From contig NZ_FXTH01000001.1 of the NCBI RefSeq assembly GCF_900182555.1, positions 372,001 through 436,000 of the forward strand: a DNA stretch of 64,000 nt. The letters are read 5' to 3'. The notes below the pieces were generated by a model. That model worked only from the letters and a program-made list of their open reading frames with translations, ran no database searches and had not been told where the DNA came from. The DNA comes from Fodinibius sediminis (GTDB lineage Bacteria > Bacteroidota > Rhodothermia > Balneolales > Balneolaceae). Every line of letters starts with the position of its first letter. Position 1 is the stretch's first letter. This document shows positions 14,066-34,400 of this stretch, one piece after another. Made by a program: the position numbers and the translations under genes.

Positions 14066-16102
14066 ATGGGGAATCTGCCTCAACATCATTCATCGCATAA
14101 GCAGGAAGCTAAAAGCCTAGGAAAACTCAGGGAAATATTACCAAATGACCTTTTTATACTTAGGAGTGAAGATGGAGGAGATTATGGGGTAGACCGAATT
14201 TTAGAAGTAGTTAATGATGGTAATGTCACAAATATACGTGCTCATGTTCAAGTAAAAAGTCAAAAGAAGAAAACTAAGAGCGAAAACATTCGATTCCCCG
14301 TACCGATAAATACTATTAATTATCTTCTTAATACTATACACTCCCTGTTTATTGTGTATTCAGTTGATGAAGATGCTTTTTATTGGGAGTGGACACGTCA
14401 AATTGCATTATCAGCGAACGGAAAACAAATAGACCTGGAAAGTACTAACCAAAAAACCTTTAGCTATACTTTTCAGAATACACTTGATGCAAGTGCCTTT
14501 GAGGATATCCACAAAAAGTTGATTTCTGATAATCAACTTTTGAAAGATATTGAAGTTGATTGCCGTCCTCTTGAAAAATCTTTAATTGAATCCCTTCAGA
14601 GCACTGTAACATATCGTGAGCTGATACTTCTATACTTACAAGGAAAATATGAAGTGGTCATAGGATTTGTGAGGGATAATTCATTAGATAATCCGGAAAT
14701 AAACTCTCTGGTATCATGGTGTTACTATCAGATTCACAATTATCAACAAGCACTTAGATTTATTGTCAAAGCGCTTAAAAAAAAGCCTTCAGATTCTCAA
14801 TTGTTAAAAATGAAAGCGGCTATTTTGTGTGATAAAGGTCGTAGAGAGCAAAACAAGGAAATGGTTGAAGATGCAAAAGCTATTATGCTTAATATAAGTC
14901 GCGATACATGGGGATGGGATGATTATTACAACTTTGGAAATATGCTTGCTGGTTTAGAAGACTATTCTGAGGCATTGGAATATTATAAGAAAGCACTGGA
15001 AAGTAATCCCAAAGATCCCAGGATTTTGAAAAATTTAAGCGAATGCTATTACTACCTTAAGGAACATGAAAAAGAGATGGAATGTCTCGACAAGGCCTTA
15101 GAGCTAAATCCGGATTTAATTGAAGCCTTAATCAGCAAAGCTGCTACTTTAGGTAATATTTTCGGTGAATATCATCAAGCGATTAAGTTATTGAATCAAG
15201 CTTTACGCATTTCCGAAAATGGATATTTTGATAACAGTGTTATCTATTATTGGTTAGCTAAATTTCATGAAGATCTAGGTGAGACACAGACTGCCTTAAG
15301 CCTTGTTGGATCAGGGCAACAAATTTATCCGGGTGATAAGTCATTGAAAAGTCTAAGACTATCAATATTGATTAATTCTTGGGATAAAGATGAGCAAATA
15401 AAAAAGCAGGCAATACAACTTTTAAAAGAATTGATTTCGAGATTTCCAAAGGATTTTGGACTTAGAAAAGAATTGCTAAAAATTTATTTCGAAGAAAAAA
15501 ACACAGAGGAGGCAGTGCCATTACTACAAGAATCACTTGAATTTGTGGGGTTCAACTTTTCCGATGAATATGTTTCTAATTTAGAATATGAAAACTTGAG
15601 AATTCTGTTTAATAATGTGGATTCATATATGGTATATCGTGAGAGTAATAATATCGGGAAAGAGTTTTTTAAAAATTTTGATCTCAAAATAAAAACTTTA
15701 CAAAAAATTGAATTTAAATTTGCTATACAATTTGCCAAGTTGGTTGATCAGATAGTTCCAGACCTTTCAGAAAGCAAACTCATTCCGATACTTGAAAAAC
15801 ACCTAAAGGAATTTATCGATCTTAATGAATTTTGCAGTGAACTACTTATCAAAAAGCACAAAACTGATCCAGTAGAAAGACAGTCAGATAAAATGACTCA
15901 ATTAGTTATAGTTCTACCAGAAATATTACTTATTGAATTTTCGAGACAGATGGGTTGGCTATTGGGACAGAATAATTACGACGATAATTCTAAAGATCAG
16001 ATACTTAAAGAATTAAATCATATAGATGAGTGGTTTGATCTTAGTATTGAACCAATTGTAAAAGGGGCTCACAATGTTATTCGTTGGTCATCAAGCAAAT
16101 AA
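14066..16102 (+). CDS. DUF4365 (nuclease-like) protein with TPR repeats
   Basis: 678 residues. Residues 10-165 resemble DUF4365, a PD-(D/E)xK-like domain: EDGGDYGVDRILEV and AHVQVKSQ supply the Asp, Glu and Gln-Val-Lys of the active-site pattern. Residues 190-470 are tetratricopeptide repeats, for example EDYSEALEYYKKALESNPKD and KEMECLDKALELNPDLIEA. The last 200 residues are helical and not recognised. It opens a same-strand series: an MBL protein 79 nt downstream, then a trypsin-STAND protein and two small proteins. Likely role: an effector or regulator of this defence operon (inference). No membrane segment. Confidence 0.75.
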   Translation: MGNLPQHHSSHKQEAKSLGKLREILPNDLFILRSEDGGDYGVDRILEVVNDGNVTNIRAHVQVKSQKKKTKSENIRFPVPINTINYLLNTIHSLFIVYSVDEDAFYWEWTRQIALSANGKQIDLESTNQKTFSYTFQNTLDASAFEDIHKKLISDNQLLKDIEVDCRPLEKSLIESLQSTVTYRELILLYLQGKYEVVIGFVRDNSLDNPEINSLVSWCYYQIHNYQQALRFIVKALKKKPSDSQLLKMKAAILCDKGRREQNKEMVEDAKAIMLNISRDTWGWDDYYNFGNMLAGLEDYSEALEYYKKALESNPKDPRILKNLSECYYYLKEHEKEMECLDKALELNPDLIEALISKAATLGNIFGEYHQAIKLLNQALRISENGYFDNSVIYYWLAKFHEDLGETQTALSLVGSGQQIYPGDKSLKSLRLSILINSWDKDEQIKKQAIQLLKELISRFPKDFGLRKELLKIYFEEKNTEEAVPLLQESLEFVGFNFSDEYVSNLEYENLRILFNNVDSYMVYRESNNIGKEFFKNFDLKIKTLQKIEFKFAIQFAKLVDQIVPDLSESKLIPILEKHLKEFIDLNEFCSELLIKKHKTDPVERQSDKMTQLVIVLPEILLIEFSRQMGWLLGQNNYDDNSKDQILKELNHIDEWFDLSIEPIVKGAHNVIRWSSSK

Positions 16103-16181: not shown

Positions 16182-17375
16182 ATGGTTCAAAAAGAACATG
16201 AAGTTGTAGTTGAAGCTTTCCCCTCTAAAAATGGAGATAGTTTCCTTATAAATATTAAGGATAATTATTTTCTCATCGACGCTGGCTATGTTACAACTTA
16301 CCACAATTATATTAAGCCACGTTTGATAAAACTTGATGGAGAGGGAAAAAGATTAAGTAGGGTAATAATAACTCATATTGATACAGATCATATATCAGGA
16401 TCTATAAAGTTTTTAGAAGAAAATAATGAAAATGAAATAATAGGAGTTGATCAAATATGGCACAATAGCTATAGAAATTTATATTCGCATGAAAAGACTA
16501 TCGAGTTAACTAAAAGATCTATTCAACTCCTTGATTCGTTGAAGCAATCAATCGATGTGAACTCAGATAACAAGATGATTAGCGCCAAACAAGGTTCTTC
16601 TTTAGCTGCTTTAATTTTGGAAGGAGAATATAAATGGAATACTGATTTTAAAGATGGGGTCATATCCAGAGGAGCAAAAGATAAACAAATCTCTGATGCG
16701 GTAAATTTTGAAATAATCTCTCCCAATAAAGGAAAGCTTAATGCATTAAAAAAATTTTGGGAAAAGGAACTTTATAAACTGGGCTTTAGAGATAAAATAA
16801 CCAATGACCCCCTTTTTGACGATGCATTTGAATTTCTCCTTTTAAAGGAGAAGGAAAAATATTTACCAAGAGATGAAAAGAAAATATCTAAAAAGATTCT
16901 TTCAATAGATGATTTACTAGAGAAAAAGTTTTATGAGGATAAGTCAGTTACCAATGGGAGTTCTATTGCATTCGTAATTGAAACTGAGCAAAAAAGAGTG
17001 CTTTTTCTTAGTGATGCACATCCAACACTAATATCAAAGGAAATTGAAAAAAGATATCAAGATAAGGAGTTTCCCATTTATTTTGATCTGATAAAAGTTT
17101 CTCATCATGGAAGTTTTTCTAATAATAGTCCAAAATTGTTTCAACTGATTGATTCAAGAAACTTTCTAATCTCTACAGATGGTACGAAACATGGGCATCC
17201 TGATTTAAGTACTTTGGCATGGATAATAAGTCGGAGTTCTGATTTTGAACGATGTATACATTTTAATTACGAAAATGAAGGATCAAAATTTTTAGATAAT
17301 TCGAAATGGAAGTCTCAGTATAATTATACCATTACAGTACCAGAACAAGGATCATCATTAATTATTTCTCTTTAA
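16182..17375 (+). CDS. MBL-fold hydrolase of the defence operon (Avs1A-like)
   Basis: 397 residues. Metallo-beta-lactamase fold of the ComEC/Rec2-like type: GDSFLINI...FLIDAG at the N-terminus, metal site THIDTDHISGS near residue 64, FLSDAHP near 278, KVSHHGSFSNN near 305 and HGHPDLS near 331. About 190 residues are inserted between the first metal site and the second half, more than in plain MBL enzymes. Its TAA is followed at once by the ATG of the STAND gene. I recall MBL-fold genes next to trypsin-STAND genes from AVAST type I anti-phage loci; the pairing here fits, but the match is by architecture only. Confidence 0.82.
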   Translation: MVQKEHEVVVEAFPSKNGDSFLINIKDNYFLIDAGYVTTYHNYIKPRLIKLDGEGKRLSRVIITHIDTDHISGSIKFLEENNENEIIGVDQIWHNSYRNLYSHEKTIELTKRSIQLLDSLKQSIDVNSDNKMISAKQGSSLAALILEGEYKWNTDFKDGVISRGAKDKQISDAVNFEIISPNKGKLNALKKFWEKELYKLGFRDKITNDPLFDDAFEFLLLKEKEKYLPRDEKKISKKILSIDDLLEKKFYEDKSVTNGSSIAFVIETEQKRVLFLSDAHPTLISKEIEKRYQDKEFPIYFDLIKVSHHGSFSNNSPKLFQLIDSRNFLISTDGTKHGHPDLSTLAWIISRSSDFERCIHFNYENEGSKFLDNSKWKSQYNYTITVPEQGSSLIISL

Positions 17376-20300
17376 ATGAAAAAATCTATTGTAAATCCAA
17401 CTCAAGTTGAAAAGGCCACTCTCAGAATAATCTGTGGAAATGAGTATGGCACTGGCTTTCTAATTTCTGATGATACACTTATTACAGCCTCTCATGTAAT
17501 TTTAAATCATATAGAGGATGAGGAGGTCATCAAGGTTGAAGTGTTAGATGAAGGAAATGGTGAGGGTATTCAATTAGAGGGAGATTTAATTGAATATGAT
17601 AGTGAGGCAGATGTTGCGGTAATTAAGCTGGATCAATCATTTAAAAAATTTTTACCACTTAAAATAAGTGAAATAAGATATGAAAGTATATGGAAGGGGT
17701 ATGGTTATCCTTACAACGCAACGGATGGAGGTTGGTTTAAAGGAGCGGTTAAACAACAAAATCAATCAAAGCCTTATGATGTAGAACTGCAATGTAGTAA
17801 TTACGATTTGGACACAGATTATAATGGTCTTTCAGGTGCACCTCTTGTTATTGAAGATAAAGTAGTAGGAATTTTAACTTGGAGTATTGTAGATGGTTTT
17901 GGTGCTATTAGCATATCTAAAATAGAATCTTTTTTAGCCTCTCAAGGAATCAAGTTCGAGCGTGAAAAAAACATTAACGAATTGCCAGATGAGCTAATCG
18001 AAGAACTAGAAGATATCGCTTCCAATGAAAATGTGATTACCCTTCTTCAAGAGAAGCTTAATACAGGTGGACAATACTATTTGTTACATGGGTCACCTGG
18101 ATCAGGTAAAACAATAGTTTCCGCAAGCCTCCCATTACATGAAAAGGATTCAGAAATTGTAGGCAAGTATTTTATTGGTAAACCGAATGATCAGAAACCA
18201 AAGTCACAAGTAATTTCGAAGGAAAGTTTTATTGGATGGCTTGAAGATTTGATAAGCAAAAAACTAACAGGTAAAGCTTATCCTAAACAAACCAAAAATT
18301 TTAATGAGCGAATAGAAGCTTTTTCGAGACTCTTAGATGAGCTTAACCAGTACTACATTGACAGAAACAAAATTGGTTTTATCCTGATAGATGGCTTGGA
18401 TGAAGTTGCTAACGCCAAAAATGTAGACTTAGAAGACTATTTAGGAGTTTTTCCCGAAACACTACCATCAAATATATCTATCCTTTTTTCGGCAACGCGG
18501 GAAGAACTACTGCCTAATTTTATTAAGTCAAGATTACTCGATAAAAATAAGATCCATGTAACTCCTATTCCAATAGAATCAAGGATTAATTATCTAAGAA
18601 AACACCTCGAAAATCAAAATATTGAACTCCCGATAGAAAATATACATGCGATTGCTGAAAAATCTGAGGGACATCCCCTTTATCTGAGATATATACTGGA
18701 GATATTAAAGAAGGAAAAACCATCCAATATTGAAGGCTGGCTAGATGGGCTTCCAAAACTGAATGGAGATATATCTAACTATTATGAAAAAATATGGGAT
18801 AACGATTTAACAAATGATTCCGATAAATTTTGGATAATTCTTACCGTTTCACAATTAAGGCATCCTGTTAAAGCCGAACTATTGATTAAAATGTTGCCGG
18901 AGGAAGCAAAGCAGGCATTTTCTATAAAAAAAGAATCTATCCAGCATTTACTAAGGGATAATTTACAAATCAGCATTTATCATAATTCATTTACTCTTTT
19001 TCTAGAAGCCAAAGCAAGTGAATCTGTTTCTTCTGCTAACGAGAACATTAGCAACTTTTGTGAAGATAATGAGGATCTCGAATATGCTATTTCTAACAAA
19101 GTATTTCATCGTCTTAATAGTAAAAATCCTCAAAAAGCAGTCATTGATTGTAATCAAGAATGGGCTGATAAGTGTGCGTTCATAAACGTAGAACCAGACT
19201 TAGTGCTGAAAGATATAAAGGATACCGAAATTTATAGTATCGAATCTGGCTTAGTAACGGAACTCATTAGGATAAAACTATTACTTCAAAGGACCAGATT
19301 TAGGTATAATAATGTACTTGCTGAAAACGCATTCCATATTGCGGATTTACTTTTAGGTCTCTCTCAACCATCCGATGCATTAAAATATATTCTAAGAGGG
19401 GAACTGTTATTAGTTAGCGATGATGATGCTATTTATTTTTTACAAAAATTTTATGAGTCTGAAGCATTTGAACAAGCTAAAAAACTTCAATCAGCTATTA
19501 GAAAAAAGTATCAGTTTCTCATCGAGAAAGAGGCGAAAGAGAACGGCTTTAAATTCTCAACAATACTACTTCATTTAAAGGCTACAACACTTTTGTTCAA
19601 TCGTGACCCTGAACAGTCTGCAGGTGAGTTCCAAAACAGAATGCAATTATTAAAAAGATTAAAGGATGCAGATGAAAGAAACGTTGAAAGTATAACCCAT
19701 CTTAGAGAATATGCTAGTGCATGGAATATGGGATATATGACTTGGCGTTTTAATAGATACCCAGGCTTGTTGGCAGTCCAAAAACTTTCTAATGTAGATA
19801 TCGATGAAAAATGGACGCGTCATTTTGCGATGATGCCTGCATTTTATGACCAGTTTAAAAGAAATGTTAACTCCTCTGAAGATAGTTCAACTTATTGGGA
19901 GCTTATAAAAGATGTTGAGCATTTAACCGAATATTATGGAGTAGCAGAGAGTGATTTGCCAATAGTAATAGGCACATTAATAGAGGATAGTGATAGAGTT
20001 GATATTGTAACAGAGCTTATTTCTAGAATTGAGCTAAATAACAATCTTTCAATACGAGCTGAAAATGGAGTAGATGTAAATTTACAAGAAATTAATTTTA
20101 CTATAGAAGAATGCAAATATGAAGGTTATCTAAATATTCAGGATTCATTACCTAAAATAGAAAATTTCTCTTCATATAACTGGGAAGCAAATTTAATCTC
20201 GATAATTCAGTTTTTAGGTCAGCTTTTTGGAAAAGCCCACAGGTATAACGCAGAAGGCCAGATAAGTCAACTCAATTCACTAGAAGAGTCAATAGATAAT

Positions 20301-22631
20301 TTAATTGAAAAGTTAGATTTTAGCTTATCTGAAAGAGCACACTGGGATAGAAGTTATGCAATACCTGAGGGAATTCTGCCAATTATTTATGGTCATTTAA
20401 CAGAGTTCATCCTCAAATTTTTTCCTGATAAGACAACTTCTTTTGTCCAAAATGTAATTGAAAGAGGAAAAGGAGGACAATTGGGTCTTTATACGGAAGG
20501 TTATAGACAATGCTTGTATTCAATTACTGAAGAGACCAGCCGATATACACATAAGTATTTAGTTACTACTAAAATTCTAAAAATTCTTGAAACCCATATT
20601 CTGAATGCTGTACAGAATAGGTGGGAAAGAGTTCCCGAATTACTTCGACTTGCAGAATTATATTCAAGGATAGGTAATGATGATAAGGCCGAAGAAATCT
20701 ATTGTAAGATGCTGGATTCTTCAATGGGGCCAACTTGGTATAAAGAAGATCAATTCACCCTAATTAACTCTATTCTATCCCTTGATTTAGCAAATAATAG
20801 TAGTAAAACACATTTTAAACAATTTGCTGGATATTTAGATTATGCCTCAGGTGAATTAACCTTTCAGAGATATGTTAGATATGAAAAAGAGAGCCTAATA
20901 AATAGTTTGGTTAAAGCGGGTCATGTGCCATTGGCGATCCAATACTTCAAATATCAGGTATTACCTGATCCCGTAACCATAATTGAAAATGCTGAATCTT
21001 CGACAGTTGATGCTCTTGATGAAGGACAAGGGTACGTTTTAGGAGCTAGGTCCATAGTTGAAGCAAACGGCATAATTCAGCTGTTAAAAAATATTGAAGC
21101 GGATCCAATAATAGTTTGGTCGATAGTTGAAGCGGTCATCATCAATGATGAAACCTTTCGATATTTACGGTCATTTACTAAGATTCAAAGCCAGTGTTTG
21201 GTTCATAGCTCATTAAGCAATGACGAAAAGGAAATGCTTCATCAGAGACTTGTTAACATCATTACTGATGAAGATATGGTTGACAATCAAGCTAACTATT
21301 TAAAAGAACTGAAAACTTATTTGAGTGAAGATGACCGCAAAATATTACAAGGCAACTTAATAAAGGAGGGAATAGATTTTAATTTTTCCAAGGAAACAGT
21401 AAAAAGCTTTAATCGTGAAGAGTTATCTGAAGAAGAGAGAGAAAAGTATGATGATTTTCGTTTGCCCGGGATGGGTAAAGATTTTCATATTGATCTGAAT
21501 TATTTAGAAGATTGTATAAATGAAGCAAGTATAGAAATAAGTGCAGAAAATTTTACTAAGGCCCGAGCAATATTAAGTAAAGGGCTAAAGCAGCTCCATT
21601 CACATAAATCAGATATTTGGAAAGGTGGAAATCTTGCTAATATATTGGGGAAGGCCTTTGATTTATTACCTCAGACAGGCAATGCCGAAGAAATAACTCA
21701 ATCTTTAAAAGAACCAATATCTAATCACTTTACAAATGACTGGATAGTTGTAGACCAGTTAATTGAAATTCTTAGTCACAATACATCCCATGAAGAAACA
21801 GAGGAGATACTTAATGCGATAAAGGATCATTTTGATATTATGATTCAATGCGATGATGAGGTGATAAAAAAGTATGACTGGATGGAAAAAGAAACCGCCG
21901 CCAGAGATAATATAAATTTTCAGTTAGTTGAATTTTTGATCTGGCTTTTAAATCATCCGCATTCTTCAGTAAAAAAGAGAGTCATAGATTCACTTAAGCT
22001 TTTAGGAACTTATAGACCTGAACAAACAATTCCATTATTGTTTGGTACTGCTTTATCAAACAAACCAGAATTTTCTACAGAATTATCCGCTTTTGTTTTA
22101 AGTAGAATTGCAAATGAAAATCCTGATATTATTTGGCACTATCTTCAAGGTAGGTCAGATATACAGGAAAAGATAGTTAATTTAACTCATTTTACAATCA
22201 AATACTATTTTAAAGAAGTTGTTGTACCTATTAATTCAGAATCAGATGAAGCAAAACAATTTTATAATGAGTTATTAGAGACAATTCCTTCAAACGTCAT
22301 TTTAGAAGGTAGGATAGAACTTGATGAGCCTAATTTATGGCCTGCTGAGCATACCTTAGAAAGATTGAATGAAATACAAATTCTTAATGACTCATTTTAT
22401 GATACCTTACTTAAGAAAATAAAAAAGTACTCAGATCCAATCGAACCTAGCGATCAATTAAAGGTTCGAAGTTATATCAATAGAAGTTTTCATGACCAAG
22501 ATGTCCATTTTGGTTCATATGACTATTTATTGAGATATGCTATTAATGATTCTATAATAGAAAGAGTTAGTCAAAGTGACTACGAAGAGGTAACCGAAAT
22601 TTTAAAACTTCCCTTTACAGATGGAACTTAA
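17376..22631 (+). CDS. trypsin-like protease / NACHT-STAND ATPase (Avs1-like)
   Basis: 1751 residues. N-terminal trypsin-like domain with the full triad: His40 in TASHV, Asp79 in EADVAVIKLD and Ser153 in NGLSGAPLV. STAND ATPase: Walker A GSPGSGKT at 239-246 and Walker B FILIDGLDEVA near 330, followed by the FSATREE sensor strand. From about residue 570 to the end there are long helical repeats (TPR/HEAT-like), the usual ligand-sensing arm. Expected mode: phage protein binding triggers oligomerisation and activates the protease. Starts directly behind the MBL stop. The protease target is unknown; the neighbours (DUF4365-TPR, MBL, the small pair) are candidates. Confidence 0.87.
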   Translation: MKKSIVNPTQVEKATLRIICGNEYGTGFLISDDTLITASHVILNHIEDEEVIKVEVLDEGNGEGIQLEGDLIEYDSEADVAVIKLDQSFKKFLPLKISEIRYESIWKGYGYPYNATDGGWFKGAVKQQNQSKPYDVELQCSNYDLDTDYNGLSGAPLVIEDKVVGILTWSIVDGFGAISISKIESFLASQGIKFEREKNINELPDELIEELEDIASNENVITLLQEKLNTGGQYYLLHGSPGSGKTIVSASLPLHEKDSEIVGKYFIGKPNDQKPKSQVISKESFIGWLEDLISKKLTGKAYPKQTKNFNERIEAFSRLLDELNQYYIDRNKIGFILIDGLDEVANAKNVDLEDYLGVFPETLPSNISILFSATREELLPNFIKSRLLDKNKIHVTPIPIESRINYLRKHLENQNIELPIENIHAIAEKSEGHPLYLRYILEILKKEKPSNIEGWLDGLPKLNGDISNYYEKIWDNDLTNDSDKFWIILTVSQLRHPVKAELLIKMLPEEAKQAFSIKKESIQHLLRDNLQISIYHNSFTLFLEAKASESVSSANENISNFCEDNEDLEYAISNKVFHRLNSKNPQKAVIDCNQEWADKCAFINVEPDLVLKDIKDTEIYSIESGLVTELIRIKLLLQRTRFRYNNVLAENAFHIADLLLGLSQPSDALKYILRGELLLVSDDDAIYFLQKFYESEAFEQAKKLQSAIRKKYQFLIEKEAKENGFKFSTILLHLKATTLLFNRDPEQSAGEFQNRMQLLKRLKDADERNVESITHLREYASAWNMGYMTWRFNRYPGLLAVQKLSNVDIDEKWTRHFAMMPAFYDQFKRNVNSSEDSSTYWELIKDVEHLTEYYGVAESDLPIVIGTLIEDSDRVDIVTELISRIELNNNLSIRAENGVDVNLQEINFTIEECKYEGYLNIQDSLPKIENFSSYNWEANLISIIQFLGQLFGKAHRYNAEGQISQLNSLEESIDNLIEKLDFSLSERAHWDRSYAIPEGILPIIYGHLTEFILKFFPDKTTSFVQNVIERGKGGQLGLYTEGYRQCLYSITEETSRYTHKYLVTTKILKILETHILNAVQNRWERVPELLRLAELYSRIGNDDKAEEIYCKMLDSSMGPTWYKEDQFTLINSILSLDLANNSSKTHFKQFAGYLDYASGELTFQRYVRYEKESLINSLVKAGHVPLAIQYFKYQVLPDPVTIIENAESSTVDALDEGQGYVLGARSIVEANGIIQLLKNIEADPIIVWSIVEAVIINDETFRYLRSFTKIQSQCLVHSSLSNDEKEMLHQRLVNIITDEDMVDNQANYLKELKTYLSEDDRKILQGNLIKEGIDFNFSKETVKSFNREELSEEEREKYDDFRLPGMGKDFHIDLNYLEDCINEASIEISAENFTKARAILSKGLKQLHSHKSDIWKGGNLANILGKAFDLLPQTGNAEEITQSLKEPISNHFTNDWIVVDQLIEILSHNTSHEETEEILNAIKDHFDIMIQCDDEVIKKYDWMEKETAARDNINFQLVEFLIWLLNHPHSSVKKRVIDSLKLLGTYRPEQTIPLLFGTALSNKPEFSTELSAFVLSRIANENPDIIWHYLQGRSDIQEKIVNLTHFTIKYYFKEVVVPINSESDEAKQFYNELLETIPSNVILEGRIELDEPNLWPAEHTLERLNEIQILNDSFYDTLLKKIKKYSDPIEPSDQLKVRSYINRSFHDQDVHFGSYDYLLRYAINDSIIERVSQSDYEEVTEILKLPFTDGT

Positions 22632-22635
22632 ACCT

Positions 22636-22890
22636 ATGAGAAGTATCGCCAAAACACGAAAAGAGTTCGAAAGAAACTTTCATCTTTTGGCAGAACATAT
22701 AAGAAATGGAAGGATGAGATTTATGAGAGGAGTAAGTACTGATGGAATTGGAAGAGTAAGATACCTGCCAAATAGACGAGTTGACTTTTTATCTGTTAAT
22801 GAATCGGCGAGGTTAGCGGCAAATAGCATTGCTGATATGGACAATTTGCCAGAGTTTAAAATCAAGAGAGATTCTGATGATGAAAAATAA
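22636..22890 (+). CDS. small protein A of the Avs1-like operon
   Basis: 84 residues from ATG 22636 (an ATG at 22621 overlapping the STAND stop is also in frame). Basic N-terminal half, acidic end. No known domain. It is a paralog of the next gene: both share KTRxExExN near the start and a core LPNxRVxxxSxxExxRLxxN, with similar spacing. Overlaps the following ORF, so the two are translated together. Could be sensor, inhibitor or protease substrate of the STAND protein; that is speculation. Confidence 0.65.
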   Translation: MRSIAKTRKEFERNFHLLAEHIRNGRMRFMRGVSTDGIGRVRYLPNRRVDFLSVNESARLAANSIADMDNLPEFKIKRDSDDEK

Positions 22891-23164
22891 CTTCGAAATT
22901 GTTCCACCTAAAACAAGAAGTGAAATGGAGCATAACATCGCACTAGTTTTTGAAAATGCATTAAATCAGATTAAAAGTGGAAATGAAACACCTGTTGACT
23001 CATTTACTCATTTCACCTTACCACATATTCAAAAACTTAAATTTCTACCTAATGGTAGGGTTCTTTTAAGCTCCATTGATGAAAGATTAAGGTTGCAGGG
23101 GAATACATTAAATAACCTGAAGTTTATGCCAAAACCTAAGCGAATCGGAGATGAGGATAGTTAA
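22877..23164 (+). CDS. small protein B of the Avs1-like operon
   Basis: 95 residues from ATG 22877 (a second ATG follows at 22880). The longer open frame from 22829 is not supported, because the paralogy with protein A starts after this ATG (KTRSEMEHN against KTRKEFERN). Shares the LPNxRV...S..E..RL..N core with protein A and has about ten extra residues in the middle. Last gene of the operon; a nested palindrome follows 62 nt later. Confidence 0.65.
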   Translation: MMKNNFEIVPPKTRSEMEHNIALVFENALNQIKSGNETPVDSFTHFTLPHIQKLKFLPNGRVLLSSIDERLRLQGNTLNNLKFMPKPKRIGDEDS

Positions 23165-23226: not shown

Positions 23227-23280
23227 TGTTCACTAATTTTACTTGTTCACGGAACGTGAACAATGATAAAAAATGAACAA
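23227..23280. promoter_or_regulatory. nested-palindrome operator, copy 1
   Basis: 54 bp with 49 matches to copy 2 at 24031-24084. Inner palindrome GTTCACGGAACGTGAAC (7-bp arms, 3-nt spacer, 23245-23261). An outer pair TGTTCA (23227-23232) and TGAACA (23274-23279) is centred on exactly the same base (23253). Four half-sites around one dyad suggest binding of a tetramer or two dimers. Confidence 0.7.
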
Positions 23281-23303: not shown

Positions 23304-23921
23304 TCAGCTATGTGCTAATGTCTCCGCATACGGTCGAATGACATTTTGAACCCTGCATATCCTGGCAAACTTCTCGATCTCCATAAATGAAGCTTTCTTC
23401 TGTCTTATGCCATCCTTCAGCGCTTCTATGGCGATATCAAGGCCAATTTGATTCCGGAACTTGAAACAATCTGCTATGGTCTTAGCTGGATTGTACACTT
23501 GTACCTCTACCCCATCCACTTCATGGGTTTCTATGCCTTCGGTTAGGCTTGGTCCTGAGAAACGATAAATTTGAAGCGGTGGATAATTGAGCTTCGGATC
23601 CCGGCTGGTCCTAGGAAGAGCAATATAAACGTGGTGTGGGATAGCTGTTGTCAGCTCATGAATATCCAGTGCTGAAATGAGACATATCCTTGCTTTGGGT
23701 ACCTTCTTGACTACAATGGTGAGACTAGGATTGGAAAGCGTCCCTTCATCGGCCAGCTTATAGAGTCCTCGCTCAAGCTTGGTTATATGGCCTTCCACCA
23801 GCATGTAGTAAAGCGTACGGCTGTGTATGCCTGACTCAAGCGCTTCCGAAGTACGTAGCAGAGGCCCATGCTCCCTGAAGAGCTTTATAGCTTCTTCTAT
23901 TTTCTGATCAGAAACATACAT
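23304..23921 (-). CDS. AbiEi-family antitoxin (orphan)
   Basis: 205 residues. Type IV antitoxin/transcription factor fold: N-terminal winged helix with SEALESGIHSRTLYYMLVEGHITKLERGLYKL (key residues S, G, R, Y, G, G, Y), then the AbiEi C-terminal domain with ISALDIHELT and VYNPAKTIADCFKFRNQIG. In AbiE systems this protein represses its operon and opposes the AbiEii nucleotidyltransferase. Here no toxin gene follows on the same strand; its 3' end meets operator copy 1. It may serve the AbiEii-like gene on the other strand or be a leftover. The 54-bp repeats flank it on both sides. Confidence 0.85.
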   Translation of the reverse strand: MYVSDQKIEEAIKLFREHGPLLRTSEALESGIHSRTLYYMLVEGHITKLERGLYKLADEGTLSNPSLTIVVKKVPKARICLISALDIHELTTAIPHHVYIALPRTSRDPKLNYPPLQIYRFSGPSLTEGIETHEVDGVEVQVYNPAKTIADCFKFRNQIGLDIAIEALKDGIRQKKASFMEIEKFARICRVQNVIRPYAETLAHS

Positions 23922-24030
23922 ATGTACAAAATAACATACATTTATTTAAATATGCATATGTTTTTGTCCATATACCCTACTTTTAAACTAATACGCTAAT
24001 CTATAGTCTGGCTATTGGAATAATGCCTCT

Positions 24031-24084
24031 TGTTCACTAATTTAATCTGTTCACGGAACGTGAACAAGAATAAAAAATGAACAA
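24031..24084 (+). promoter_or_regulatory. nested-palindrome operator, copy 2
   Basis: Same structure as copy 1: inner GTTCACG/CGTGAAC at 24049-24065 and outer TGTTCA/TGAACA. It ends one base before the ATG of the AbiEi_2-like gene at 24085, so it probably overlaps the promoter and leader and lets that protein regulate itself. Confidence 0.75.
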
Positions 24085-25080
24085 ATGAAAACTAATATAC
24101 TTCCCATAATACAAGAACATCTTGAAAATCTCACTCCATTCAAGCTAGAAGTGGATGAACAGGGAACGTATATCCAAGATGGACATCAAGTTGATGCAAA
24201 GGTGAAGCTCCATCTTCCAGATGAGACATTAGCGTTTTTTGCAGAAATAAAGAAAGAGGTCCGGGCCCATCAGCTTCCCAGAATTTATGAGTTGGCCAAA
24301 ACCAATACCCCATTTCTGCTGATTGGCGGACAAATTTTCCCAAATATCAAAGAAAAACTTAAGGAAAGGGACATTAATTGGATTGATGGGGCTGGTAACA
24401 TGTACATAAAGAACAAAGATCATTTTCTCTTTGTGGATCACAACGAGACATTTCATATAAAAGAGGAGAAGGATCGGGCATTTACGAAAACCGGACTGAA
24501 AGCAGTCTTCTTGTTTCTTCAGGATGAAACCTGGATTCAAAAAACCTATAGGGAAATTGCTGAAGCTGCGGGTGTAGCTTTGGGAACCATTGGATATGTC
24601 ATCAATGGACTAAAGAAAAGAAAATACCTGGTAAAGAAGGACGAAAAGAACTATCAGTTAGTTCGTAAAGAAGAGTTGATTGATGAATGGATTGCCGCTT
24701 ATGAAACAGAGCTAAAGCCTAAGCTTCACAAAGGTAATTTTGCATTTATTGATGAAAAACAAGCTGCTGACTGGAAAAATATGACCCTTGATGATCAAAC
24801 CGTATGGGGTGGTGAGGCTGCTGCCGAACTGGTTACGGGAATGCTCCGGCCACAGCTCTTAACGCTTTACACAACGCAGACTAAGGGCAACATTATGAAG
24901 AAATTCAGACTAAAGCCTGATCCTAATGGGCTTGTTCACGTTTACGAACCATTCTGGAATATTGAAGACAACCAAGAAACGGCCCCACCCTTGGCTATCT
25001 ACGCAGACTTAATCTTAACCGGAGATGAACGCAATTTTAAAATAGCTGAAAAGATTTATGCCGAATTCTTACAAGATTAA
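24085..25080 (+). CDS. AbiEi_2-type antitoxin/regulator
   Basis: 331 residues, resembling the large AbiEi_2 (DUF2186) antitoxins. The N-terminal 110 residues look like a degenerate nuclease fold (LAFFAEIKKEVRAHQLPRI, LLIGGQIFPNIKEKLKERDINWIDGAGNMY in outline). The middle holds a helix-turn-helix (YREIAEAAGVALGTIGYVINGLKKRKYL, key residues A, G, G). The C-terminal part has FAFIDE...WGGEAAAELVTG and ends ADLILTGDERNFKIAEKIYAEFL in outline. The DNA-binding middle and the operator directly upstream imply autoregulation. The nucleotidyltransferase gene overlaps its end by 23 nt, making an antitoxin-toxin pair. Confidence 0.82.
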   Translation: MKTNILPIIQEHLENLTPFKLEVDEQGTYIQDGHQVDAKVKLHLPDETLAFFAEIKKEVRAHQLPRIYELAKTNTPFLLIGGQIFPNIKEKLKERDINWIDGAGNMYIKNKDHFLFVDHNETFHIKEEKDRAFTKTGLKAVFLFLQDETWIQKTYREIAEAAGVALGTIGYVINGLKKRKYLVKKDEKNYQLVRKEELIDEWIAAYETELKPKLHKGNFAFIDEKQAADWKNMTLDDQTVWGGEAAAELVTGMLRPQLLTLYTTQTKGNIMKKFRLKPDPNGLVHVYEPFWNIEDNQETAPPLAIYADLILTGDERNFKIAEKIYAEFLQD

Positions 25081-25900
25081 GTTATCCAGTTTCAATCAAG
25101 AAGGGCTAAAGGATGTCATTCAAATACTGGAAACTGTTTTCCAAAAGTTTGATGTGGACTTTTATCTCATTGGCGCCTTAGCAAAAGACATGTGGCTATC
25201 GAAGGAGAAAGTCCAATCCAGGGCTACCAAAGATGTCGATTTGGCGGTATTTGTTTCAGAGTCTGATGCCTACGAAAATATCAAATCGACACTTATTAAA
25301 GAGCACAATTTTAAAGAGGTATCAACGAATGCTTTTGCCTTACTGACTCCTTACGGTTATCCCGTTGACCTGCTTCCCTTTGGCTCAGTCGAAATTGATG
25401 AGGCTGTTGAAATAGAGGGAGATGGGCTAACGAAAGTCCATGTGAACGGATTTAAAGAAATTTATCAGCAAGGAATAGCGCCTGTATTAACCGATGAGGG
25501 TATTACGTTCAAAATTGCCTCCCTTGCTTCCATCATTTTATTGAAACTAATTGCTTTTGATGATCGACCGGAGAGACGAACACAGGATATCAAGGACATT
25601 GCTCTTATCTTAGACCATTACTTTCATATTGAAAGTAATGAAATATATAACCATCATAATGATCTATTCGGCAATGAAGATTATGAATTAATTGATATTG
25701 CTGCTATCGTCATTGGCAGGGAAATGCAATCGGTCTTATCTTCTAACAAGCTTCTACAAGATCGAATACTTAACATTCTCTCTTTATCTGAAAGGCATCA
25801 TAAAAAGATTCCAACATTGATGGCTCAGAGTGAAAACTTTACGATTGACCAAGCAACCTTACTTTTAAAAAAGATAGCAGAAGGGATAGGCCAATTGTAA
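25058..25900 (+). CDS. nucleotidyltransferase toxin (AbiEii-like)
   Basis: 280 residues. Polymerase-beta-like nucleotidyltransferase: DFYLIGALAKDMWLS near residue 33 and ATKDVDLAVFV near 57, giving the G...DxD pattern, then a third acidic position around YPVDLLPFG near 107. The rest is helical with DDRPERRTQDIKDIALIL near 168, typical for these proteins. Relatives disable tRNA or other targets by adding nucleotides. Overlaps the antitoxin gene, so coupling is tight. Catalytic residues seem intact. Confidence 0.82.
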   Translation: MPNSYKIKLSSFNQEGLKDVIQILETVFQKFDVDFYLIGALAKDMWLSKEKVQSRATKDVDLAVFVSESDAYENIKSTLIKEHNFKEVSTNAFALLTPYGYPVDLLPFGSVEIDEAVEIEGDGLTKVHVNGFKEIYQQGIAPVLTDEGITFKIASLASIILLKLIAFDDRPERRTQDIKDIALILDHYFHIESNEIYNHHNDLFGNEDYELIDIAAIVIGREMQSVLSSNKLLQDRILNILSLSERHHKKIPTLMAQSENFTIDQATLLLKKIAEGIGQL

Positions 25901-27113: not shown

Positions 27114-30100
27114 TTACCAGTTTTCTAATTTTGTCTGTATGCCTCCAAATATCTCCTCATTCTCTAATCCATATATTCCATATACATTCAACCTCCCATC
27201 ATACTGGTCTGAGACTCCCCTTGACCCAATCTTTTCTCCAAAAACCTGCCAGAAAATAGTTAAATCATTCTCTTCCAAGAAGTTGATTAGTGGTAATTTT
27301 TTAACTAATAAGCCTGATATGCTATCATTATAAATAGAAGGATCAAAGCAAATAAGTTCGCCTTTACTATTGTTAAATTGACCTTCTTTTGTACCATTAA
27401 CTAGATTCAAACCATTTTTTATAATATAAGTAGGTTTATAAAAAGCTATTGCACCCTCTGTTTTTGAACAATCATACTCTTCTTCCCATAAGAAGTACTC
27501 TGCAGTTGGAGCTACTTCACCATAAACTTCATCAGCTTGATAGTTTCTAACCCTACTCCAATTTTCTCCACGATGAAAGGAAGAATTAAAGTATTTATAC
27601 GCCGCAGACCAATAATATTCTCTGCTAAAAACTTGGAATAGATCCCTGACTTGAGGTAAAACACCTCTAAATTTCCAATCATTGAACCGTGTTAACAACT
27701 CCTCTTGCTTATCCTTATGGATTAGATATGAATTAATATGGTACCACAATTGCTTTTTACTAATTTGTCTTGCTCCGCAATCTCTTAGAGTTTTAGGTTC
27801 TAACCAAATTGGTTTTAAATTAAGCCAAACCCAATCCTGCTCTTTTAAATCGGTAGATTCAATGATACGTTTGGGATCAGGTACGTCATCATCCTTTTCA
27901 ACCCACTCTTTATTAGAGTCTATCCAATTAGAGTAATTTACATCAAACCACCAATTAGAGGAATACTCATCATAATGTTCTTTTTGTGTTTTTTTAATTA
28001 TCAATGTAGGATCAAAATCTCTCACATAAGGATACCAAGGTCCCTGATATTCTGTTAACTCAGGCGAACTTCCTCTATAAAAACCAGAACTATTTTCAGC
28101 AGAAAGTTCAAAATGGTCAGAGACACGTGCTAGGAGTTCATAAAAAATAATCCATTGATATTTCTTGCCAATGCGTTCGTTATGACCAGATCCTCTCCCA
28201 GTACCTTGTCTTTGATCAAAATTATTGAAGAGATCAGGCTTATACCCGAGTTCAAAAATTTGTTGTACAGCGTAGTTACTCAAACCATCATAATCTATAT
28301 TCCAATTTTTAAAAGCAGCCTGAAAAACATAGCGACCGAAATCACCATAGCTTGCTGTGCCTCTACCATATTCTGTAGCCATTGATCTTAGAATTGCTCC
28401 AGACCCCCAATTTTCATTTCCATAGTGACCACTCTCCCCCTTTGGTTGGTATTTTTCATCTATCTCTTCAATAGATGGAAACTCATCGGGCAACGACTCA
28501 CTTTTATAAGGTGGGCGTACTTTATCAATACTAATATTTGGTTCTAAGCCAAGTTGAAGTGCATACTCAACTATTTCTCTTGCATAATCCCTTAATAATA
28601 TATTCGGAAATATAAATTCTGTATCAAATATAGTACTGTATATAAATTCACAAATTTGTACTAGATGTGAAGTGTCATCCGACCTTAAAATACTTCCATA
28701 CGCTACAGCATATAATCTCTCAGTAACATACGGATCATCAACATTTTCAAATGTCGAAAGAATAGGTTCGATTAAATAGGTTCTATTCTGCAGCAAGTTA
28801 ACAAGTGCAGAAGATGCTGCATCTCTTAAATATCTATTAGAGCTTGTTAAAAACCATCCTAAACAAATTGCTCCTAATCTTATTGATTCGTCATCGATAT
28901 GACCTTTGTCATTATTATTCCATGCCCATTCAATCAATCTATTTACAGAATTCGTACGATTATATCGATCATATTTATTTTGAAGCCATGTAGTCCACAA
29001 TGAATCTCGCTGGGCTAATTCATATTGTTCTAAGGCGCGATGCAACCTATCAGCATTAAAAGGAAAATTAGGCTTCATTGCAGTTGCAATCATCTCATTG
29101 ATGAAACGATAAAAAAGACGTTCATTTTTTAAAATTACGTCTTTTAAGTAAGGTTCAGTTCCTTCATTAAAAGAGTCTGTCTTTCTCCATAAAATAGAAT
29201 TAACAAAACCCTCTGCTACCGAATAAAAATGTTTACAGTGAGGAAAAATTTGATATAACTCTTTATTTGTTCTTTCAGGTACTTGAATTGATAAAGCATC
29301 AATTAGATTTTGATTATGCCGTGCTGTCTGCTCATCCTTTAACAACTCTTGTAACTTACCTTCTTGAACTGATTCTTCAAGGTTTTTTAAATCGAGATTT
29401 TCATCCAGAAGTAAAGAAACAGTTAAATGGTCTTGGAACCTCTCATATGCAAAATAAACTACTTCCTGATGGTCTTGCTCCTCATCCCACGCAAGATCTA
29501 CGTTAAAAACACCTTCTGAAATTAATCTTTTTAAGTATGGTTCTTGATTTGCACAATTTCCCTGGAAGACTGAGTTAATTATTTCATTAGCTTCATTATA
29601 CTGGATATAATTTTTCCCCCTATCTACTAACTCTATAATTACTTTTTCAATTGCTTTTTTAACTAATCGTGTCTTAAAATCATAATGCAATTGGTCTGGT
29701 TTCGAAAGTTTGTGGTCAATACTCTCAATGTAATAATTGATTATTGTAGTTATCCCTTCATATCCCGGTGGTATTTCCTTAAGACCACGTTTATTCAAGG
29801 ATTGGCAAAATAGTTTTAGGAATAGCGGATTTTGGAATTCCGGATGTAGTAAAGGAACACTAGGTTGAAGAATTTCATACTCTTCAAAGAATTGCTTAGA
29901 TGCTTCATATTCGATCCCCAAAAAGCCTGTATGTTCTTCTCTGGAAGCAACATTACTATCTATTTCATCTTGGGGGGCTATAAGGTTTTCGTATGAGTTC
30001 CTAATACTTACTACGACTCCTAACCAATCGAAATCATCAAATATTTCTATAAAAGATTTCAGCCGACTTGGCCAAATGAATCTACCTTGCCCTTCATTTA

Positions 30101-31394
30101 ATGCATCGATAAATAATATTATTCTTGAACCAATACTTTCTGCTTTTGCATTTAAAGCATCAAGAAATGTAAACTCATCTAGATGGTTCCTTCGGAGCTG
30201 ATTGTTTAAAATTTGAGTCCAAGGCATCTGCCTCGTAGAAAAATTTTCTCCCAGTATGAAAAGGCTTAGTAACCCTTTTTCTTTTCTCCTCCTAACCACA
30301 TCTGCTAACAAATGCGATTTCCCAACTCCAGCTTTACCTGTAACTATTAGGTTTGGCCTATTTGATAATTCACAAATTGTACTATCTAAGAATTCTTTAA
30401 ATTCATTAAGTGCAATTGAAAACTCGTCAAGTTTGTTTATCTGTCTGCCAAAAGGTCTTCCATAATAACCTATTTCTTCAATGTCTTTACCTTCTTCTTC
30501 ATCTGCTCGGAGCTCAAAAAAGGTATTCGAAATTTCACCACAGGTATCTGAGATTTTATCCAGTTGGGTTTTTAGTGAATCATATGGAATTTTTTCATTA
30601 CCACTCAGATTAATAGACTCAAATAAAATCTGAAATTCGTTAATCCCTTGTTTAAGAGCTTCTTTCAAAGAATCTAGGTTCCCATTTGAACTATCAAAAG
30701 ATAGGCTTCCATATTTATTGCAAAATTCTCGATATTGCTTAATTACTTCTTCCTCAAACTGACTGTTTCGAGAAAGCCCATCGAAAACTTTGCTTATTGG
30801 CAACTTAACATTTAACTCAGGTGTATAGCGACTTCCTAATGAGTCAAAACTTTGTTTATTTTTTTGTTCAAACCACTGGTTTCTAAATTCATCCTCATTA
30901 AACCAAAAATATTTTAATCCTTGGTTTTCAGGTAATGAAATCCTTGTAATTAATTCATGATTACCCCAATACTCAAATTCTACCTCTCCCAACCCATTTT
31001 CTCTTGCATATGCCTTCCACTCCTCAACCTTTTCATCCCACTTATCTAGCATTGATTTTTGTTCTGAAGATTTGCCATCTGGCATATCATAGGGAATAGC
31101 CACATAATACTTTGTCAAATCAGGATGATTATCAATGCATTTTTTTACTGAACCATCGACTTGTTTCCATTCAGATGAAGAAAGAGATTTTGTAAAGTAT
31201 TTTGCCTGCCAACAATAAATTTCTCCATCTTCAAATTTCCAGAAACACTCTTTGCCAGCATCCGGGTTGCCAACCCTCCTAAAGCTTTTCTGATCATTTA
31301 ACTCTTCCCTCCGTGCAAGTTGACATACTAGTTCTTCAAAGCCATCAAATTTATTACCATTTAATGGTCTTATGTTATCCCAATTGATGCCCAT
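27114..31394 (-). CDS. Mrr-like nuclease fused to STAND ATPase (Avs-like)
   Basis: 1426 residues. The N-terminus is a PD-(D/E)xK nuclease of Mrr-like type: FEELVCQLAR at 19-28, GNPDAGKE at 42-49 and CWQAKYF at 61-67 give the Asp, Glu and QxK residues. ATPase: Walker A TGKAGVGKS near 351, Walker B IILFIDALNEG near 425. The remaining 900 residues are helical repeats, the probable sensor. The layout equals nuclease-STAND anti-phage proteins such as Avs4. It starts 47 nt behind the type IIG enzyme on the same strand, so both are likely one transcript. Confidence 0.82.
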   Translation of the reverse strand: MGINWDNIRPLNGNKFDGFEELVCQLARREELNDQKSFRRVGNPDAGKECFWKFEDGEIYCWQAKYFTKSLSSSEWKQVDGSVKKCIDNHPDLTKYYVAIPYDMPDGKSSEQKSMLDKWDEKVEEWKAYARENGLGEVEFEYWGNHELITRISLPENQGLKYFWFNEDEFRNQWFEQKNKQSFDSLGSRYTPELNVKLPISKVFDGLSRNSQFEEEVIKQYREFCNKYGSLSFDSSNGNLDSLKEALKQGINEFQILFESINLSGNEKIPYDSLKTQLDKISDTCGEISNTFFELRADEEEGKDIEEIGYYGRPFGRQINKLDEFSIALNEFKEFLDSTICELSNRPNLIVTGKAGVGKSHLLADVVRRRKEKGLLSLFILGENFSTRQMPWTQILNNQLRRNHLDEFTFLDALNAKAESIGSRIILFIDALNEGQGRFIWPSRLKSFIEIFDDFDWLGVVVSIRNSYENLIAPQDEIDSNVASREEHTGFLGIEYEASKQFFEEYEILQPSVPLLHPEFQNPLFLKLFCQSLNKRGLKEIPPGYEGITTIINYYIESIDHKLSKPDQLHYDFKTRLVKKAIEKVIIELVDRGKNYIQYNEANEIINSVFQGNCANQEPYLKRLISEGVFNVDLAWDEEQDHQEVVYFAYERFQDHLTVSLLLDENLDLKNLEESVQEGKLQELLKDEQTARHNQNLIDALSIQVPERTNKELYQIFPHCKHFYSVAEGFVNSILWRKTDSFNEGTEPYLKDVILKNERLFYRFINEMIATAMKPNFPFNADRLHRALEQYELAQRDSLWTTWLQNKYDRYNRTNSVNRLIEWAWNNNDKGHIDDESIRLGAICLGWFLTSSNRYLRDAASSALVNLLQNRTYLIEPILSTFENVDDPYVTERLYAVAYGSILRSDDTSHLVQICEFIYSTIFDTEFIFPNILLRDYAREIVEYALQLGLEPNISIDKVRPPYKSESLPDEFPSIEEIDEKYQPKGESGHYGNENWGSGAILRSMATEYGRGTASYGDFGRYVFQAAFKNWNIDYDGLSNYAVQQIFELGYKPDLFNNFDQRQGTGRGSGHNERIGKKYQWIIFYELLARVSDHFELSAENSSGFYRGSSPELTEYQGPWYPYVRDFDPTLIIKKTQKEHYDEYSSNWWFDVNYSNWIDSNKEWVEKDDDVPDPKRIIESTDLKEQDWVWLNLKPIWLEPKTLRDCGARQISKKQLWYHINSYLIHKDKQEELLTRFNDWKFRGVLPQVRDLFQVFSREYYWSAAYKYFNSSFHRGENWSRVRNYQADEVYGEVAPTAEYFLWEEEYDCSKTEGAIAFYKPTYIIKNGLNLVNGTKEGQFNNSKGELICFDPSIYNDSISGLLVKKLPLINFLEENDLTIFWQVFGEKIGSRGVSDQYDGRLNVYGIYGLENEEIFGGIQTKLENW

Positions 31395-31441
31395 CGCTAT
31401 TAATCTTATTTTTAACTAGTATTTATTGCTAAACTCTTGCT

Positions 31442-34400
31442 TCAATTATTCATTTGCTCCTCGACTATCCTAACCTCCTCCTCTGTTAAACCATAAAGCT
31501 CATACACAAGCGTGTTTATTTCCTCGTCCAACTCTTTGGTGTCGGCTTCGGGATCTTCTTCTTTGGCGGTGAGAATTTGATTGACGAGGGATTCTAACAC
31601 ACTGTTATCTTCAAAAGAATCAGGTATTGGCATTACTTCTAAATACTGTCTTTTCCATCTATAAAACCCTCCTCTGATTTCAGAACTGATAGTTGAAAAT
31701 AAAAATGTCCACAATTTAGAATTTAGGATTCCAAGTAAAGCCTTAGAATCTGTACCCATTATAAATCCAGTTGTGTCTAAATAGTTATAATTCTTATCAA
31801 TCGTGAAGTGACCTCTTCTTGCAATTTCGGCATACATAATTTTGTTTCGTTCAAACTCTTCGTAATAGTCAACAGCATCCTGAATTTCGTACCATTTGTA
31901 AGAACCAGGTTTTCTCCCATCCCAATTACTTGAAGAAACATTTTTGGGACGAGGTTTCAATTCTTTTTTAAAATTTTCTAAATAGTCTTTAATCGCTGGG
32001 TATTCATCGATTTCTACCCCTCTTCTGGTAAATATTAGATATCTTTTAGCCTCAGGAGATTGATATCTCTTAATATCTTTACCTCTCAAAAATGGTTTAA
32101 TTAACTCATCACTTTTCGAATCCTTCTGCAAGAGTTTTTCTTTTTTCTCTTTATTTATCACAAAGACCTTATTCAAACCAGTTTTAACACCGTAATAAAA
32201 TTCCCCATTAAGATATTTTCCTAAACTTTGACACCTGTTATTTATTCGTTCTACAAGTTCTTGAATTTCTTTGTTGACTAAAGCCCAACTTTCATCATTA
32301 AGTTTTGTTTGATCCACTTCAAAATAATCCTCATTGGTTAAGGCTTCTAAGCTATTGAAGTCTAATGAATTAACTTCAATAGCTTTAAAAGAGTAATTAG
32401 CCGGTTCCTTCTTTAGATGTAGTAAGCATGGATAAGCTGTGGCAGCATCGAAGACAGGTAAGTCTCCAAAATCAACGATGGAATTAATCTGATAATTTTG
32501 GATCCATTCTCGAAGAGGTTTGCCATAATTGGCTCGCATCCATTTATTTGAAACGATATAATGAAAGAAACCTTTCTCTTTCATTATTCCCATACCTCGT
32601 TGAGTGAAATACTGGTATAAGTCTGCGTATCCACTATATACTTCATAGTACTCTTTTAAATATGGTTTAATCTTTTTTAATAATTCTTGTCGTATATACG
32701 GCGGATTCCCAATCACAGCATCAAAACCGTTGAAGTTTCCGTCCTCGTCCAGCACTTCGGGAAACTCAAATCGCCATTCAAAGGCTTGGTCGTAGAAGGT
32801 GGCATTTTCAAGTTCTTCCAGCTCCTCTTCCAGCTTGCCAATTTTCTTTTTGGTCTTCTTGATTTTCTTTTGCTCTTTCTTGCTTTTCTTTTCCCCTTCA
32901 AACAGGTCCAGCTTGGCTTCTTCCTTAATGAGAATTTCGCGCTGTTTCTTTAGCTTCTGACGAACCGGGTCCAGCTCTTTGAGTCCCACCGAAAAGCTTT
33001 CCTTAATGGAACTAATCTGCTCTTTCAGCGCCCGCTTGTCCTCGCGGTTGCCGGTTTCTTTATAACTGCGTACCGCCCGTTTGTATTCCTCAATTGTTAG
33101 GTTATCGTTGTTAGACAAAATCTGGGAAAGGTCGGCATCCAGATCGAAGCGGTTTACTAGTGAATTTCCTTGTTTGATGTTAATATCAATGTTGGGCAGC
33201 ACTTCGAGCTGTTGGAAGTCTGTACTTTCCTTGTAGTAGGCATGCTTAAGCAACTCAATCCACAGCCGCAGCCTGCAGATGTTGACCGAGTTGGGATTGA
33301 TATCTACCCCGAACAGGCAGTTTTCAATGAGGATATTCTTTTCGCGAAACAGGGCTTTCTGCAGTCGCTGGGTGTCGGACCCGACCGTACGTTCAATGGT
33401 TCCATTTTCTTTCCACTCCGAATGCACCCGGTATTCGAAAAAAGGATCTTGTCCCACCGAAATGCTGAGCTCATCATTGTCCACGCTGATTTCAACATCC
33501 CGAATGTGGTGGTTATCCTCATCCACAAAGATCCGAAGATCACTTTTTATGGCTATCAACTCATTCAGGGCAGAAACCAAAAAGTGTCCGGACCCCACTG
33601 CCGGATCACAAATGGTGATGCTGTTAACAACTTCGTTGGCCTTATCGTATGGGATTTCGTGCCGGGAGATCTTGGCAGCTACATCATCAATGTCCTCGCA
33701 GTCCCAGTTCTCGTAGGTTTCATTAAACTTTTGCACCACCGCCCGACGAATAGTCTCCCGACACATGTATTCGGTGATATAGCCGGGGGTAAAGAAGGAT
33801 CCATCTTTATAGCCGTTGATCTTTTCAAAGATGCGTCCCAGTACCGAAGCGTTAATAAGGGTTTTGGCTTCTTTCTGGACCTCGGCCGTACCTTCCGTGT
33901 TAAAGTTATAGGCATCCAGAAAACGCAGCAGGTATTCGAGAGCAGATAGCTTTTCACCTTTGAGGCGCTCCCCGTCCCGGTTGCGAATTTTACTGCGGTT
34001 GTGCACCGGCATTTGTAGACCGTCCTCCAGCTCAGAAATGCGAATCGTATCCTGCTCGATATCAGCCACATCAAACAGAGAGCTATTCAGGTAGGGGATA
34101 TGCCCGAAGTGCTTGTTAATACGCTCGGAGCGATCCTCTGCCTGAACAGCCAAGACCTGGAAAAAGAGTTTATTCAGTCCATCATATTCTTCAATGTCGC
34201 GGTGGCTTAAAAATCGAAAGCGGTCGTCTTCCCGATGGTATTTAAAGAGCTGTGATTCCAGCAACTTCAAAAACAGAATACGGTTAATCCAGGTGATCAG
34301 CAGCTGGATTGCTACATTAAATAGCTGCTCTTCTTCATCGTCACCAAACTCTGACCGGTTGGACAGCCGCGAAATTACGTTCAGACTTTTAAGCTGTGTG

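Follow-up and report, generated by a model that had tools for sequence, protein, structure and literature searches.

The closest described systems to the locus presented here are the type 1 AVAST (Avs1) anti-phage operons. In a relative, defence is activated by the phage terminase: upon sensing it, Avs1b cleaves a gating loop in Avs1a through its protease activity, which unleashes the nuclease (PMC12799240). The role of Avs1c is unreported in the literature searched, a full-text search for it having found no paper, which makes it the sole type 1 AVAST component in this position. Within the 64,000-nucleotide stretch of Fodinibius sediminis DNA analysed in this work (the window), we identify an avs1a-avs1b-avs1c1-avs1c2 operon that is, on the evidence of its sequence, a divergent type 1 AVAST anti-phage operon, with the following components:

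16182..17375 (+): avs1a, MBL-fold (gated pro-)nuclease of 397 aa (NCBIfam NF041809, 479.9 bits against a cut-off of 420; PADLOC Avs1a, 356 bits)
17376..22631 (+): avs1b, trypsin-like protease, STAND NTPase and helical arm, 1751 aa (PADLOC Avs1b, 906.6 bits)
22636..22890 (+): avs1c copy 1 (NCBIfam NF041811, 92.8 bits against a cut-off of 70; PADLOC Avs1c, E 3e-25)
22880..23164 (+): avs1c copy 2, a diverged paralogue (NCBIfam NF041811, 38.2 bits, E 1e-9; PADLOC Avs1c, E 9e-10)

The window shares with type 1 AVAST its gene order, its three protein families, the protease and STAND motifs and the MBL nuclease encoded upstream, but differs in carrying two avs1c genes and in encoding an Avs1b without the conserved C-terminal domain. 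The PADLOC match covers residues 9-1744 of the window Avs1b, which shares only ~32% identity with L045, its nearest relative, and scores 839 bits against NCBIfam NF041810, under the 1500-bit equivalog cut-off. This cut-off appears to miss further divergent members, since the full-length Avs1b proteins of two other loci (L004 and L006) are named just 'serine protease' by NCBI. All reading frames of the operon are open, and alignment with 19 homologues shows that the H/D/S catalytic triad and both Walker motifs (A and B) of the window Avs1b are intact.

A sequence-only reading had described the last two genes as overlapping small ORFs with common KTR.E.E.N and LPN.RV motifs, and both their positions and these motifs were confirmed. 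Copy 1, directly downstream of avs1b, encodes 84 aa from ATG 22636 (89 aa from an alternative ATG at 22621), and copy 2 encodes 94 aa from ATG 22880 or 95 aa from ATG 22877, giving an overlap of 11-14 nt; a listed TTG start that would extend the second ORF to 111 aa is unlikely. The start motif reads KTRKEFERN in copy 1 and KTRSEMEHN in copy 2, the core reads LPNRRV and LPNGRV, respectively, and S..E..RL..N is common to both, such that each copy carries the TR.E.E and LPN.R...S..E..RL..N signatures of the NF041811 and PADLOC Avs1c families. Copy 1 passes the NF041811 cut-off, whereas copy 2 reaches only 38 of the 70 bits required, so that we regard it as a diverged paralogue rather than an equivalog.

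The same reading had interpreted the pair as the product of tandem duplication and divergence, and this interpretation is borne out by two lines of evidence that together rule out a chance resemblance. Local alignment of the two proteins scores 83 (BLOSUM62 11/1), a value reached by 0 of 2000 shuffles (mean 24.7, SD 4.5, maximum 50), and profile searches with each protein independently recover the same curated family, Avs1c. At the DNA level the similarity of the copies is within chance, and the duplication is therefore either old or fast-diverged. Codon usage in both ORF frames resembles that of avs1a and avs1b (0.12 and 0.19 bits per codon), with wrong-frame scores of at most -0.37 bits per codon. 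On these protein-level comparisons, the two copies are a real, probably old Avs1c duplicate pair.

To place this arrangement in context we assembled 26 distinct Avs1c loci besides the window from plasmids, genome contigs, viral contigs and whole-genome searches (L024 being counted together with L019); these are mostly from Pseudomonadota and Bacillota. A genome scan with a single protein query returned no loci and one with an alignment query returned 15, while a search of E. coli DNA with a Citrobacter avs1b query gave no match. In keeping with the family lying behind other STAND genes, Avs1c follows Avs1b, or its remnants, at the 26 other loci, and a second avs1c is absent from every one of them. 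Each of the 15 whole genomes carrying Avs1c has exactly one, as does each further carrier. Judged by these sequences, a single avs1c is otherwise the rule and its doubling is unique to the window among the loci examined, although tandem copies could be commoner in groups outside this sample. Among 245 genomes of the same class, Avs1c occurs in the window's genome alone, and the same holds for a 395-genome sample of the phylum. Avs1 loci are often decayed, five being broken or remnants (L007, L009, L011, L023 and L052); in three of these (L007:8586-9249, L009:9002-10249 and L023:8715-10258) the 3' end alone is retained, comprising the Avs1b C-terminal domain and an intact avs1c. At a further locus (L039:10626-11507 (+), genome G738) the end of avs1c is overlapped by a 293-aa ORF that has no match in Pfam and is a possible extra operon gene.

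The second distinguishing feature of the window concerns Avs1b itself. A conserved, beta-rich domain with a core of ~110 aa forms the Avs1b C-terminus at each of the 26 other loci, where it is encoded just upstream of avs1c; it is kept even where avs1b is broken (L007, L009, L011 and L023) or truncated at a contig end (L013). The window Avs1b, at 1751 aa, ends just before this domain, compared with 1914-1994 aa for intact homologues. A domain HMM found no match in any frame of the window, and the domain is not encoded elsewhere in the whole genome (G000) in a search that detected positive controls, with sequences outside the query, in three genomes. Displacement of the domain to another frame or genomic site was thus rejected, as was the notion that copy 1 or copy 2 represents the missing domain under another name, the profiles failing to match (hhalign probability 0.2). 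In a phylogeny built from the STAND and arm region, the window Avs1b falls inside a strongly supported set from Bacillota and Fusobacteriota, all of whose members have the C-terminal domain and a single avs1c. Because the window nests among such homologues, both the domain loss and the avs1c duplication are derived; the two coincide in a single case, that of this genome.

A model of the Avs1b C-terminal region is helical and then beta-rich (mean pLDDT 67). Its best PDB match is Avs3 in its terminase-bound form (8dgc), with E 0.009 and a probability of 0.72-0.82, a TM-score of 0.3 and an rmsd of 16-18, and no match between the two was found at the sequence level. Given so weak a match (E 0.009, TM-score 0.3) and no sequence support, a role of the C-terminal domain in sensing is only a lead from modelling; the likeness to Avs3 moreover concerns the domain missing in the window and not Avs1c. 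For Avs1c, a model of copy 1 built from 18 sequences (mean pLDDT 72) has one long helix at the N-terminus, connected through an extended segment to helices at the C-terminus, and matched neither PDB nor viral folds at E <= 0.001. Terminase entries did occur among the weak viral structure matches, at E values of about 3 or worse, and were discounted as noise. This model would be consistent with a protein that acquires its fold on a partner.

How far copy 2 has departed from its family can be read from its conserved positions. It retains 9 of 11 family-invariant residues. Of the 25 positions at which >=80% of the other Avs1c proteins agree, it keeps 16, compared with 11 of the 48 variable positions (Fisher p = 0.0007). 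The nine strongly conserved positions that it has lost, which include the D, F and L of RIDFLS, point to a pattern in which changes cluster in the IDFLS segment while the N-terminal motif and LPNGR core are kept. We consider copy 2 to be probably under selection, because the invariant residues are largely kept and its codon usage is coding-like. The proposal in the sequence-only reading that both copies are maintained by selection thus receives only indirect support, through this residue conservation in copy 2. That reading had further suggested that the two proteins might form a heterodimer or a sensor/decoy pair.

Taking the family identities, the paralogy, the doubling, which is unique in the loci examined, and the missing C-terminal domain as given by sequence, our tentative preference, at somewhat short of an even chance, is for a tandemly duplicated avs1c beside an Avs1b shorn of its C-terminal domain, with copy 2 specialised as a second, non-identical subunit. 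Under this scheme Avs1c would serve Avs1b as a small accessory subunit; copy 1 would retain the standard Avs1c role, and copy 2 would join it in the same Avs1b complex. The specialisation of copy 2 is our best guess as to its function. It may compensate for a surface or for stability lost with the Avs1b C-terminal domain, an attractive possibility drawn from one genome, or it may instead adjust the range of phage proteins recognised. A stronger version, to which we give little credence, is that an NLR-like sensor has shed its C-terminal domain and that the second, specialised copy of its small partner replaces it as a separate, swappable subunit; if true, a recognition or scaffold surface once built into the sensor would have been partly split off into an exchangeable component. 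A natural operon combining two divergent Avs1c proteins with a domain-less sensor offers a ready-made test of the roles of Avs1c and of the C-terminal domain.

The most serious competitor, which we regard as somewhat unlikely, is that copy 2 is redundant or decaying and has no role of its own, the doubling and domain loss reflecting neutral drift, perhaps in an operon that is losing function. Copy 2 may no longer belong to the complex, or may be in decay, given the conserved positions that it has lost and its very long branch (4-5.7 changes per column), and both the restriction of the doubled avs1c to one genome and the frequent decay of Avs1 loci are in line with such a scenario. Free drift, however, would be expected to erase both the 9 of 11 invariant residues and the coding-like codons that copy 2 keeps, and the open frames of the operon, together with its intact protease and ATPase motifs, likewise argue against decay.

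There is a slimmer chance that copy 2 acts as a regulator or decoy, competing with copy 1 or mimicking a phage-targeted surface and thereby setting the activation threshold of the sensor. Retention of the N-terminal motif and LPNGR core alongside a changed IDFLS would fit one binding face being kept and another altered, but could equally mean a changed partner surface, and no such decoy is documented for AVAST in the literature found. Least probable, in our assessment, is that copy 2 was acquired laterally from another Avs1 lineage instead of by local duplication: it matches proteobacterial proteins best (36% to Chimaeribacter) whereas copy 1 groups with Bacillota Avs1c, with weak support, and the copies lack DNA similarity, but so long a branch cannot be placed with confidence and direct sisterhood of the copies is not rejected (AU p = 0.25). 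Searches of plasmids and viral contigs for close relatives of copy 2 returned ordinary Avs1c proteins or no match.

Beyond Avs1, proteins of ~560 aa from four genomes (L030-L033, L035-L038) have an N-terminus recognised by the Avs1c profile, and two of these proteins are also matched by PADLOC DitB. DitB is a component of the Aditi system; a literature search on DitB and Aditi found no paper. It is the N-terminal ~80 aa of these DitB-like proteins that match (hhalign probability 96.8, 59 columns). They differ from Avs1c in being fused, single proteins and in having xPDGEVDL in place of the LPNGR motif, and no Avs1a or Avs1b was seen near them. Two of the four lie beside prophage genes, one between phage tail sheath and tail fibre genes and another adjoining an integrase. 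The presence of an Avs1c-like domain on these proteins suggests a small module that serves in more than one defence protein. Outside recognised defence loci, an Avs1c-like protein of 64 aa was also found standing alone (L046:2625-2819 (+)), adjoining a putative lipoprotein gene. The Avs1c profile also gave a LacI-family match in L034 (E 8e-4), which was taken as chance.

Several further features were noted around the operon. A 678-aa DUF4365 and TPR protein (14066-16102 (+)) is encoded 79 bp upstream of avs1a and possibly belongs to the same defence cluster. A sigma-70-like site matching at 11/12 positions (22530-22558, upstream of copy 1) was set aside, such sites being no commoner than in shuffles. 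After copy 2, at about 23243-23263, lies a perfect 9-bp inverted repeat, TTGTTCACG-GAA-CGTGAACAA, which is operator- or terminator-like. Adjoining the AVAST operon, AbiEi-like regulator genes (one per strand) and an AbiEii-like nucleotidyltransferase (23304-25900) form a putative type IV toxin-antitoxin set, and at 27114-35287 (-) an Eco57I-type methylase protein (DUF7149/DUF7814), followed downstream by an AAA protein of 1426 aa, constitutes a further restriction-like system. A MobA/VirD2-type relaxase at 39647-41743 (-) suggests that this defence cluster is located on or near a mobile element.
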